Origin: Sulfurimonas sp.
GTDB lineage: Bacteria > Campylobacterota > Campylobacteria > Campylobacterales > Sulfurimonadaceae
Direction: 5' to 3'
Assembly (NCBI RefSeq): GCF_016744025.1
Contig: NZ_JADGFC010000005.1
Location: 1 to 60,744, forward strand
DNA: 60,744 nt
Of the stretch, positions 37,289 through 40,994 are shown piece by piece (position 1 is the first letter of the stretch; each line of letters begins with the position of its first letter). The notes below the pieces were generated by a model. The model worked only from the letters and a program-made list of their open reading frames with translations. It had not been told where the DNA came from and did no database searches. A program made the position numbers and the translations under genes.

Positions 37289-38428
37289 TTGACGGACACA
37301 ACACTTATTTTACTTGCTGCGGGTAGTTCTAGTCGTTTTGAGTGTGATGTAAAAAAGCAGTGGTTAAGAATCGGGCATCTACCTTTATGGCAATTTGTCG
37401 CTCGTAAGTGTGTAGAAACTAAACTTTTTAATAAAATCATTATCACTTCTTCTAGTGATGACATTGAGTTTATGAAAAGTTATGATTCTTTTACCTTTGT
37501 AGAAGGTTCTAGCACTAGGCAAAAATCTTTAAAAAATGCTTTAAAAGAAGTAGATAGTGAATATGTTCTTGTTAGTGATATAGCAAGATCTTGTGTAAAC
37601 GAAGAATTTTTAAAAAAAATCATCTCTAAAAAAGGCGAAGCTGACTGTATAGTTCCATACTTGAGAGTCAGTGATACTATAGTATATAAAAATGAGACTA
37701 TAGATAGAGAAGAAGTAAAGAGAATTCAGACTCCTCAACTCTCTAAAACTTCTGTTATTAAAGAAGCTCTTGAGAGAGATGAAGAGTTTACAGATGAAAG
37801 TAGTGCAATAGTTGCTAATGGTGGTTCAAGAGAATTTATACTTGGAGAGAATGAAGCTAGTAAAATTACTTATATCCGTGATTTGAACTCTCTTTCATGT
37901 TTATCTCAGCCATCAAGTGACATACTTAGTGGCACAGGCTTTGATGTGCATGCCTTTGATGACAAGGAAGAAATGTATCTAGGTGGAGTAAAGATAGATT
38001 CAACTTTTGGATTTAAAGCTCACAGTGATGGAGACGTAGCAATTCACGCCTTAATAGATGCTCTTTTAGGAGCAGCTGGAATGGGTGATATTGGTATGAT
38101 GTTTCCAGACAGTAGTGATGAATACAAAGATATTGACTCAAAAATTTTACTTCAAAGAGTTGTTAAAAAAATATACAACTTTGGTTTTATTATTGTTAAT
38201 GTTGATTTAACAATAGCGGCCCAAACGCCAAGGATTGGCAAGTACAAATTGCAAATGAGAAAGACTATAGCAGAGATTTTAAATTGTGATAGCTCTAGAG
38301 TAAATATAAAAGCTACCACAACTGAAAAGCTTGGCTTTATTGGTCGTAGTGAAGGTGTTGGCGTTATTGCGAATGCAAATTTAAAATATTTTGATTGGAC
38401 TAAAGTTCAGAATAAAGGTAACAATTGA
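37289..38428 (+). CDS. ispDF: Bifunctional IspD/IspF isoprenoid enzyme
   Basis: A 379-residue fusion. The N-terminal IspD part has LLAAGSSSRF and KKQW for CTP binding; the C-terminal IspF part from about residue 215 has GFDVHAF, GGVKIDS, AHSDGDVAIHALIDALLGA and MFPDSSDEY with its zinc ligands. It carries out two steps of the MEP pathway, making and cyclising CDP-methylerythritol. The fusion is normal in Campylobacterota. The start is a TTG with AAGGA 6 bases upstream. It overlaps the regulator gene by 4 bases, as in Campylobacter and Helicobacter. Confidence 0.95.
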   Translation: MTDTTLILLAAGSSSRFECDVKKQWLRIGHLPLWQFVARKCVETKLFNKIIITSSSDDIEFMKSYDSFTFVEGSSTRQKSLKNALKEVDSEYVLVSDIARSCVNEEFLKKIISKKGEADCIVPYLRVSDTIVYKNETIDREEVKRIQTPQLSKTSVIKEALERDEEFTDESSAIVANGGSREFILGENEASKITYIRDLNSLSCLSQPSSDILSGTGFDVHAFDDKEEMYLGGVKIDSTFGFKAHSDGDVAIHALIDALLGAAGMGDIGMMFPDSSDEYKDIDSKILLQRVVKKIYNFGFIIVNVDLTIAAQTPRIGKYKLQMRKTIAEILNCDSSRVNIKATTTEKLGFIGRSEGVGVIANANLKYFDWTKVQNKGNN

Positions 38429-39312
38429 AAATACTAATTATAGAAAACGAAGTTTATTTAGCACAGAGTATTGCTACAAAGTTAAGCGAGTTAGGTCATG
38501 TATGCGAGATGTGTACATCCACTAGAGATGCGATAAAAAGTAATAACTATGATGTAGTTTTACTTTCTACCAACATCAACGGTCAAGACTTTAACCCGGT
38601 TATTGAGACATTTAAAAATTCTATTATTATATTAATGGTTTCATATATCTCAAATGACACAGTTTCTAAACCACTCAGTGCAGGTGCGAAAGACTATATC
38701 CTTAAGCCTTTTATGATTGAAGAACTCATTAGAAAGATAGACCACTATCAAGACTATGAGAAACTAAAAAATAGAGATGAGGCTTATAAGAAGTACTTAA
38801 CTCACTCTTTTTCTACCGTGACACATGAGCATGATCACGATGCAATTGAACTGCCGATTTTTATCTCATCATCATTTCAAAAATACTCAGATGCTTTTGC
38901 CTTTGAGCATGCATATAAAAAAGATTTGCCAATACACTTTATAACACTTAGTGATCCTAAGGCTATGAGTGAAATAGAATCTATAAATCAAGATTCTATT
39001 CTATATATTATAGATTATCAAACTCTTAAAAAAGGTGATAGAAAAACTTTTGCTTCTCTTATACATAATAAAAAAGCAATTATTTCAAGTACCGACAAGA
39101 TTGAAGATGTAGAACATAAAGTGTTAGAAATAAAAAGTGAAAACAATATTTTTGACCAAGGTGACATACTTCCAATTGAAGATTATGTAAAGTATATTGT
39201 TCTTAACTATCAATACAAATTTCCAGATATTGAACTATCAAAAAAATTAGGTATAAGCCGTAAAAGTTTATGGGAAAAACGAAAGAAATATGACATCATC
39301 AAGAAAAAATAA
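38425..39312 (+). CDS. Atypical response regulator of the HP1021/Cj1608 family
   Basis: A 295-residue protein. Residues 1-120 are a receiver-like domain whose phosphoacceptor site reads LLSTNI, with Ser48 where Asp is expected; the Lys in YILKPF is kept. A CxxC (Cys27, Cys30) is the only cysteine pair. The C-terminus (about 255-295) is a Fis-type helix-turn-helix (SKKLGISRKSLWEKRKKY). Gene order ispDF - regulator - sat - pgpA matches Campylobacter (Cj1607-Cj1610), and HP1021 follows ispDF in Helicobacter. HP1021 is a phosphorylation-independent regulator tied to replication initiation and redox. Start TTG overlaps ispDF by 4 bases. Confidence 0.88.
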   Translation: MKILIIENEVYLAQSIATKLSELGHVCEMCTSTRDAIKSNNYDVVLLSTNINGQDFNPVIETFKNSIIILMVSYISNDTVSKPLSAGAKDYILKPFMIEELIRKIDHYQDYEKLKNRDEAYKKYLTHSFSTVTHEHDHDAIELPIFISSSFQKYSDAFAFEHAYKKDLPIHFITLSDPKAMSEIESINQDSILYIIDYQTLKKGDRKTFASLIHNKKAIISSTDKIEDVEHKVLEIKSENNIFDQGDILPIEDYVKYIVLNYQYKFPDIELSKKLGISRKSLWEKRKKYDIIKKK

Positions 39313-40480
39313 AACTCTTTTAATAGATAAAGAAGCAGCCTGTGCTTTAGAACTACTAAAAGATGGCTTATTAGCACCAGCTACTTCATTGATGAACTCA
39401 AAAGAGAGTCAAAGCGTTTTAAAGACAAGATTAATAAATGGAAAAACATTCCCTTTTCCTTTTATTCTTGCACCATCAGGTAAAACTAATGCTCTAGTTC
39501 TTGAATCACTCAAAGAGGGAGAAGAACTAACTATCTTATATGATGGCAAAGTGTTTGCAACTCTAATTGTTAAAGAAGTTTTTCATATTAATCCTAGCGA
39601 TAGAATTAAGCAAATTTATGGAACAGATGATCTTAATCATCCTGGTGTATCAGCTACAATGAGTAGACTTGGACCATTATCTGTTTGTGGAGAGTATGAG
39701 CTTGTAAATAAATCTAGCAATAACAATAAAGAGATCATAGAAGATGCAAAAAAACGCATTAATGCAAAACATACAACATCTCTTGTTATGGCAGCTAATC
39801 CTTTACATCGTGCACATGAAAGATTAATACGCCAAGTTCTTGAAAATACAGACCTGCTTGTAATATTTTTACTCAAACCATATACTGAGTCAAATCTTTC
39901 ATATGAAATACGAAAAGAATCTCTAGAATTTTTTATAAATAACTTCTTAACTAAAAATCATGTGGTGGTTGTTCCTCTGGATAACAACTATATATTTGCT
40001 GGTTTTAATGAAATAATTCTAGATGCCATAGTAGCTAAAAATTATGGTTGTGATAGGCTAACTATTGGTAGTAACCATGCTGGAGTTGGTATGTTTTATG
40101 ACGCTAATTCTAATAAGTCAATCATAGATAGAGTAGTTGGAATAGATATAGAAATTACGATTACAAACGAATATGTATATTGCGATAAATGTACAACTCT
40201 TGTAAGTAAAAAAACTTGTCCACATGGTCAACACCATCAGATATCTTATCATGCAGACTCTATCTTAGAACTTTTAGAACTTGGGCTTCTTCCTCCAACT
40301 ATTCTAATAAGAAAAGAGATTTCAGCACAGATATTATCTAAGCTATTTCCAAACAGATTTAAAAATTTGGAAAAACTATACTACGACATCTTGCCAGTTG
40401 AAGGTCTTTTAGAAAAACACACTGAAAAAGGTTTCTACTTAGAGTTAATGAAACTCTACCAAACAACATCACTTACATAG
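39290..40480 (+). CDS. sat: Sulfate adenylyltransferase-like protein (active-site residues altered)
   Basis: A 396-residue protein with the ATP sulfurylase architecture: a PUA-like N-terminal domain, a nucleotidyltransferase domain with PLHRAHE (His173, His176) and a Cys/His zinc motif (YCDKC then CPH). The usual sulfate-binding QTRNP reads MAANP (167-171), so Gln and Arg are lost, and GRDHAG reads GSNHAG. ATP sulfurylases make APS from sulfate and ATP, or the reverse in sulfur oxidisers. With the two anion-binding residues gone, activity on sulfate is doubtful. It overlaps the regulator gene by 23 bases; the order is conserved in Campylobacter (Cj1609). Confidence 0.85.
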   Translation: MTSSRKNKTLLIDKEAACALELLKDGLLAPATSLMNSKESQSVLKTRLINGKTFPFPFILAPSGKTNALVLESLKEGEELTILYDGKVFATLIVKEVFHINPSDRIKQIYGTDDLNHPGVSATMSRLGPLSVCGEYELVNKSSNNNKEIIEDAKKRINAKHTTSLVMAANPLHRAHERLIRQVLENTDLLVIFLLKPYTESNLSYEIRKESLEFFINNFLTKNHVVVVPLDNNYIFAGFNEIILDAIVAKNYGCDRLTIGSNHAGVGMFYDANSNKSIIDRVVGIDIEITITNEYVYCDKCTTLVSKKTCPHGQHHQISYHADSILELLELGLLPPTILIRKEISAQILSKLFPNRFKNLEKLYYDILPVEGLLEKHTEKGFYLELMKLYQTTSLT

Positions 40481-40487
40481 GAATATA

Positions 40488-40994
40488 ATGAACTGGTTTT
40501 TTATAACACTAGGCTTTAGCGGTCTAGCTCCAAAAGCACCTGGAACGGTAGGAACTTTAGTTTCTCTGCCTCTTGGAATGCTTATACTAATATACTTTGA
40601 TGCACGAACTCTATTCTTAGCATCTCTTCTTATCAGCATTATTGCTATTAAGTCTATAAATAAATACGAAGAAAAAAGTGGCATACATGATGACAAACGA
40701 ATTGTTATAGATGAACTTGCAGGAATGTGGTTTGCACTAAGTGTATCTCCAGCAATAAGTGTTGGTATGGGTGAAGTTACAAGCTTAGAAAATGGTTTTT
40801 TAATTCAGTCTATCTTATCCTTTGTTCTTTTTAGATATTTTGATATCGCAAAACCTTCTATAATAGGAAGAATTGACAGAGAAGTTAAAGGTGGAATCGG
40901 TGTTATGGGTGATGATATCATCGCAGGTTTTGCCGCAGGAATCATGAGTTCTCTTATATGGCAAGCTTGGTTACAGATTCAAACTATGACTTAA
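40488..40994 (+). CDS. pgpA: Phosphatidylglycerophosphatase A
   Basis: A 168-residue inner-membrane protein. LGFSGLAPKAPGTVGTLVSLPL at the N-terminus, IVIDELAGMW and the final GVMGDDIIAGFAAG are the conserved PgpA blocks, with three to four hydrophobic segments between them. It removes phosphate from phosphatidylglycerophosphate in phospholipid synthesis. It follows the sat-like gene by 7 bases and ends exactly where the convergent polyferredoxin gene ends, with no spacer. Confidence 0.93.
   Translation: MNWFFITLGFSGLAPKAPGTVGTLVSLPLGMLILIYFDARTLFLASLLISIIAIKSINKYEEKSGIHDDKRIVIDELAGMWFALSVSPAISVGMGEVTSLENGFLIQSILSFVLFRYFDIAKPSIIGRIDREVKGGIGVMGDDIIAGFAAGIMSSLIWQAWLQIQTMT

Follow-up and report, generated by a model that had tools for sequence, protein, structure and literature searches.

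An ATP sulfurylase homologue of Campylobacterota that has lost the sulfate-binding residues and resembles citrate lyase ligase at its active-site loop

Within the window, the whole stretch of 60,744 nucleotides of Sulfurimonas DNA analyzed here, lies a gene whose relatives carry the database label 'sulfate adenylyltransferase' and whose product has changed at the residues that hold sulfate in ATP sulfurylases. What does such a protein do? An earlier note on this DNA had proposed two possible roles, adenylylation of a different acid or sensing. We refer to the gene as SATL (SAT-like). It is part of the following conserved cluster.

37289..38428, plus strand: ispDF (isoprenoid synthesis), which opens the cluster; NF006899 above cut-off
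38425..39312, plus strand: cemR, an atypical response regulator, identified from its position and similarity as the orthologue of HP1021/Cj1608/Abu0127 (PMC11334517)
39290..40480, plus strand: SATL, 396 aa with an ATG start, called from the open reading frame and Pfam
39290..39312, plus strand: overlap of the SATL start with the end of cemR, 23 nt to the end of the cemR stop codon; same offset in 46 of 55 loci
40488..40994, plus strand: pgpA (phosphatidylglycerophosphatase A), which closes the cluster; PF04608

We read 58 SATL-family loci spread over most families of the order, together with about 80 mostly Sulfurimonas loci. Most families share the gene order ispDF-cemR-SATL-pgpA, and thiC often precedes it on the opposite strand. 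SATL directly follows cemR in 55 of the 58 loci and is followed by pgpA in about 52, confirming the conserved place between a global regulator and pgpA that had been claimed for the gene. We take SATL to be the homologue of Campylobacter jejuni Cj1609, based on the C. jejuni gene order (ispDF as Cj1607, the regulator as Cj1608, then Cj1609). This order agrees with the Campylobacter-type loci examined and with PMC4435418.

The change at the sulfate site is old and widespread. Of 299 genomes sampled from the order, 235 have a PF01747 match, and almost every match that was read is a member of the SATL family. A maximum-likelihood tree places the family as a monophyletic group, split from canonical SATs with 100/100 support by a branch of about 2.8 changes per site; a recent local mutation was rejected on this basis. 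Purifying selection on SATL is strong, with a median dN/dS of 0.053 in Sulfurimonas (0.040 for cemR and 0.104 for ispDF), and this value together with the intact frames led us to reject a decaying pseudogene. A search for viral relatives of SATL found none. The profile scan of contigs gave mostly Sulfurimonas, and statements of range hold for Campylobacterota.

By domain content and predicted structure the protein is a relative of ATP sulfurylase. Pfam assigned PF01747 (ATP-sulfurylase, 1.5e-50) and PF14306 (PUA_2, 2.4e-21), and an AlphaFold2 model (mean pLDDT 83) retrieved only ATP sulfurylases as top Foldseek matches, the best being 8a8d (E 5.6e-29, TMq 0.75). The protein has both the PUA-like domain and the ATP-sulfurylase fold expected of Sat (EC 2.7.7.4), as well as the nucleotidyltransferase fold with H/TxxH expected of the HxGH superfamily. 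It scores far below the cut-offs of the NCBIfam SAT models, with 200.7 against 387 bits for NF003166 and 147 against 322.95 for TIGR00339. The closest known system is the zinc-binding Sat subgroup (Thermus 1v47, Methanothermococcus 8a8d), with which SATL shares the fold, the order of PUA_2, catalytic and zinc domains, the HxxHE motif, the GxxHAGxG scaffold and the zinc ligands. In contrast, the sulfate Gln and Arg, MRYAGPR, the Arg and Asp of GRD, the GxxKxxD lid and SGTxxR are lost or changed in SATL, which also has an extra C-terminal tail of about 40 residues, stands at the distance given above and lacks a sulfate-pathway context. The parts of the protein that bear on its function are as follows.

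39302..39709, plus strand: N-terminal PUA-like domain, residues 5-140 (PF14306, 2.4e-21)
39788..39817, plus strand: MAANPLHRAH (167-176) in place of QTRNPxHRAH, the former sulfate/alpha-phosphate loop and HxxH; similar to MNANPFTxGH of citrate lyase ligase (CitC)
39866..39913, plus strand: FLLKPYTESNLSYEIR (193-208) where canonical proteins have the NPLVGxxKxxD lid loop; K196 and R208 are new and GxxKxxD is missing
39983..40009, plus strand: NNYIFAGFN (232-240) where canonical proteins have AMRYAGPR; the invariant Met and Arg replaced by Y234 and I235
40067..40090, plus strand: GSNHAGVG (260-267), the former GRDHAG loop
40181..40249, plus strand: zinc motif C298-x2-C301...C310-P-H312-G with the family-conserved H315, H316 and Y320
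40250..40267, plus strand: HADSIL (321-326), the former SGTxxR pyrophosphate motif
40352..40477, plus strand: family-specific C-terminal tail, residues ~355-396, ending LMKLYQTTSLT; not in canonical single-domain SATs

We compared 56 SATL-family representatives (<75% identical) with 12 canonical SATs, using the ligand roles published for Allochromatium vinosum SAT, where sulfate is held by the side chains of Gln199 and Arg201 and by Ala299-NH (PMC3779200). The sulfate-holding role that the earlier note had given to the Gln and Arg is thereby supported, and both residues are gone across the family. The Gln column reads M34 V9 F9 T3 I1 and the Arg column A48 G3 F2 V1 I1 L1, with Gln and Arg each in 0/56, whereas Q, T, R and GRD are invariant in the canonical proteins (12/12). 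The equivalent of Thr200 is A, S or N, and that of Asn202, which serves the alpha-phosphate/PPi, is N27, K16 or D7. A Gln or Arg restored one position off was also considered and rejected, as no adjacent column holds a conserved Q or R among the 56 representatives; position 170 is K or R in 18/56. Within the GRD loop, Arg occurs in 10/56 and Asp in 1/56, the positions of Arg296 and Asp297 being mostly Q/R/K and N. The ribose-contacting positions are retained, Gly295 in 53/56 and His298 in 51/56 (the His is lost in five). Both the second His of HxxH (H176) and the Glu that follows (E177) are found in 56/56, and the first His in 47/56 (N in eight, T in one). The zinc ligands C298, C301, C310 and H312 are likewise present in 56/56, as are H315 and Y320. 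Thus the changes first seen in the open reading frame at 39290-40480, from QTRNP to MAANP and from GRDHAG to GSNHAG with HRAH(E) and the zinc ligands kept, are real and common to the Campylobacterota homologues.

The earlier reading was right about the sulfate ligands and underestimated the extent of the change, since two further losses had been missed. The GxxKxxD lid, whose G, K and D are invariant in canonical proteins, is replaced by K196 and two variable positions. SGTxxR is gone as well, including Arg365, which serves PPi; its S, T and R, which all 12 canonical proteins have, are mostly H/N, D/E and L/M/K in SATL. With both elements lost, ordinary ATP-to-AMP chemistry is not assured for SATL. 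Furthermore, canonical MRYAGPR has become Y-I-F-A-G-x-N, and the family has gained K196, R208, Y234, H315/H316, Y320, R356 and Y383, together with a C-terminal tail that ends in YQTTSLT. The loop letters drift in Campylobacter and Helicobacter, for example to TSLDPLHRAH.

The genomes that carry SATL give it no place in sulfate metabolism. Elsewhere in the source genome lies a cysH-cysD-cysN-sulfite reductase operon, with a gene for a PLP-dependent enzyme of the cysteine synthase type after it; CysDN ATP sulfurylase shares with SATL the annotated reaction only, and the two belong to unrelated protein families. Among 55 genomes tested, 27 SATL carriers had neither a strong APS kinase match (E below 1e-20) nor a strong CysH match (E below 1e-30), and AprA was above cut-off in 0 of 38 genomes, which include 17 of these 27. 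The partner that would consume APS (APS kinase, CysH or AprAB) is thus not a consistent companion of SATL, and a role in sulfate assimilation or dissimilation was rejected given these counts and the CysDN operon. As expected, a canonical sat with an adjoining APS kinase was found in another genome (G070). We conclude that the SATL family is, with high probability, not an ATP sulfurylase, and that the published 'Sat' labels on proteins of Sulfurimonas, Nautilia and Campylobacter (here Cj1609) are probably mistaken.

This conclusion bears on several published accounts. All four reviewed Sulfurimonas genomes were described as having a Sat-type enzyme and no AprBA (PMC4584964), an aquifer epsilonproteobacterium was found to have 'sat' with the rest of the pathway missing (PMC4674564), and a 'sulfate adenylyltransferase' expressed in Nautilia was assigned to sulfur respiration (PMC10092268). 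Judging from the distribution of the family, the Sat proteins of these papers would be SATL members. Claims of sulfate assimilation or sulfur respiration have rested on 'sat', or the lone gene has puzzled authors (PMC4584964, PMC4674564, PMC7952632, PMC10092268), and the label spans free-living sulfur bacteria and food-borne pathogens. If SATL is not a sulfurylase, the published reconstructions need correcting, and a gene reported as essential in both C. jejuni and C. coli would have to be assigned a function anew. That report (ESSENTIALITY) comes from TraDIS, in which Cj1609 was called essential in C. jejuni (six strains) and C. coli (four), and not essential in C. lari and C. hyointestinalis, with one strain each (PMC10077673). 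The call may reflect polarity on pgpA; taken as it stands, essentiality is unexpected for sulfate assimilation.

For a positive function, the most specific indication is a match to CitC, an enzyme that adenylates acetate. PF08218 (citrate lyase ligase) was matched by 15/31 SATL members (best 3.5e-6) and by 0/6 canonical SATs. In profile comparison with hhalign, SATL matched CitC at 96.7% (E 3.5e-10), and SAT matched CitC at 6.9%. When the HxxH region was compared with equal samples (eight sequences, 12 draws), SATL gave 95-97% in every draw and true SATs 5-44%. Other HxGH enzymes (PanC, NadD, CoaD, RibF) reached at most 31% with SATL as single-sequence controls, a form in which CitC still gave 89-96%. 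A general HxGH likeness was therefore rejected as the source of the match, which is specific because none of these four enzymes gave a comparable one. The letters common to SATL and CitC are M-x-A-N-P...H, F193, R208 and Y234 (the last aligned by eye across a short gap), and they are invariant in seven CitC sequences.

The match has clear limits. It is local, with Thr of the MNANPFTxGH loop replaced by His and weaker letters in Campylobacter, whereas over its full length SATL is a relative of SAT (E 1e-56) and not of CitC. PUA_2 stands in place of the N-terminal part of CitC, the full-length CitC model TIGR00124 scores 26 against 262 bits, below cut-off, and no citCDEF context was found at SATL, whose neighbors are ispDF, cemR and pgpA. 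The ISASxVR motif of CitC was not found in SATL; since an ISxSxVR motif is common to CitC and SAT, the full CitC reaction is not claimed. The idea that the protein adenylylates another acid thus gains a specific CitC match, reproduced in 12/12 random subsets, and is weakened by the loss of SGTxxR and the lid.

Together these observations suggest that SATL would be an ancient offshoot of ATP sulfurylase, kept across the order and no longer acting on sulfate. The HxxHE helix, most ribose-binding Gly and His residues and the zinc ligands are retained, and the rebuilt loop, M-x-A-[NK]-P...HxxH...F-L...R...Y, specifically matches that of CitC. The protein may then bind an adenine nucleotide together with a carboxylate or acyl group, as an acyl-adenylate, and either make acyl-AMP for a thiol or amine acceptor or handle an acyl-adenylate made elsewhere. 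Its synthesis is probably coordinated with that of CemR. As read from sequence, an enzyme that uses a carboxylate or acyl-adenylate is our best single bet among the positive functions, with a probability of about 0.4. It draws on the residue switches (56 against 12 sequences), the CitC match, the SAT fold, the missing link to a sulfate pathway, the reported essentiality and the dN/dS. Several points count against it. SATL lacks the IS(G/A)(T/S)xxR-type pyrophosphate motif of CitC and SAT, and may no longer be able to use ATP for adenylylation by the known mechanism. Convergence is possible in loops as short as HxGH. The CitC-like letters weaken in Helicobacter and in Campylobacter, the genus of the reported essentiality, and the conserved cluster contains no gene for an acyl acceptor, citrate lyase or an acyl carrier. 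The CitC-like signal brings the function within direct reach of assays on purified protein with a small set of acids. A fuller version is rather doubtful: that an acyl-adenylate enzyme arose within the ATP sulfurylases by a swap of the sulfate site for a CitC-like carboxylate site, belongs to the Campylobacterota core, cannot be dispensed with in C. jejuni or C. coli, and is coupled in translation to CemR, whose missing signal it might supply or read.

The alternative that survives best, although we consider it unlikely, is that SATL is a non-catalytic sensor of a nucleotide or metabolite and partners CemR (Cj1608/HP1021). This orphan regulator of energy metabolism governs energy conversion, and the way it perceives its signal has been called enigmatic (PMC11334517). 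Such a sensor would fit the retention of ribose-site residues while those for PPi and sulfate were lost, the co-induction of Cj1607-Cj1609 (PMC4435418) and the adjacency of the two genes. The constant 23-nt overlap points to translational coupling, although overlapping coding constraint alone could also maintain it. Conservation of an N-terminal RKNK in SATL was set aside as evidence, being partly forced by the overlap with the lysine-rich end of cemR.

The distribution of the two genes cuts both ways. CemR was present in every SATL-bearing genome examined for it, and in a panel of 24 genomes that lack SATL it was kept in 14 and missing in 10; however, the CemR-less genomes cluster in a few lineages, and one of them (G038) is only 82% complete. 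Conversely, CemR persists after clean deletion of SATL in at least two groups, one family (f9) and several Helicobacteraceae, where ispDF-cemR-pgpA has closed up. SATL in turn persists away from cemR in two genera of f9 (L057:4471-6079 and L205:4195-5774), divergent from queH. Finally, cemR is deletable in C. jejuni (PMC11334517), whereas Cj1609 is reported as essential. The cysteine content of CemR showed no clear correlation with SATL loss. In another family (f8) ispDF adjoins pgpA with neither gene between; the same arrangement in one genome (L250, G007) is either ancestral or the result of losing both genes together. Both queH-linked loci carry a short lipoprotein-like gene after SATL that has no Pfam match and proved a dead end as a functional lead. 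Among the changes reported in a C. coli OR12 derivative that is aerotolerant is sat A290V (PMC5366326); if this sat is the SATL gene, the substitution would fit a link to oxygen and energy control.

It is quite improbable that SATL is a structural or scaffold pseudoenzyme, conserved for its zinc/His domain and C-terminal tail and not for the old active site. The most invariant block is indeed 311-320 (mean entropy 0.62), the tail is conserved too, and the active-site letters drift in Campylobacter and Helicobacter. However, the second most conserved block is 171-180 (0.74), with H176 and E177 invariant, which a pure scaffold would not need.

A role on RNA is less probable still, with the PUA-like domain binding tRNA or rRNA and the HxGH domain modifying or recognizing RNA. 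The model here is TmcAL (PF05636), the tRNA(Met) cytidine acetate ligase, an acetate-adenylating tRNA enzyme that shares the HxGH fold with SATL and may share acetate adenylylation with it. PUA_2 is present in 31/31 aligned SATL members, and the divergent queH in two f9 genera is a tRNA modification gene; yet canonical SATs have the same PUA-like domain with no known RNA role, and the queH adjacency is confined to two genomes. PF05636 matched none of 32 genomes and none of the 31 aligned SATL members, which seemed to leave room for SATL as a stand-in for TmcAL; the SATL-less genomes also lack TmcAL, so its absence says nothing.

Least tenable of all is the idea that SATL still works as an ATP sulfurylase through an unorthodox sulfate site and supplies assimilation, the role proposed for the Sulfurimonas Sat-type enzyme (PMC4584964): the shared fold and domains, the retained HxxH and zinc ligands, the database label and the reconstructions that assume it are outweighed by the loss of the sulfate side chains, the PPi Arg and the lid in every lineage examined, by the model scores and by the genomic evidence on the sulfate pathway.

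Three minor observations concern the fate and location of the gene. One Helicobacteraceae-type genome (G200; L204/L230) holds a broken SATL copy with stops and a split frame, which suggests ongoing loss. Plasmid matches from outside the phylum have scores like those of canonical SATs, and the six that were read all keep QTRN. Within the phylum, a linear 395,512-bp record of Sulfurovum mangrovi labeled as a plasmid (NZ_CP087125.1, locus L208) carries ispDF, a response regulator, SATL and pgpA; with this core cluster on it, the record may be a piece of the chromosome mislabeled as a plasmid.
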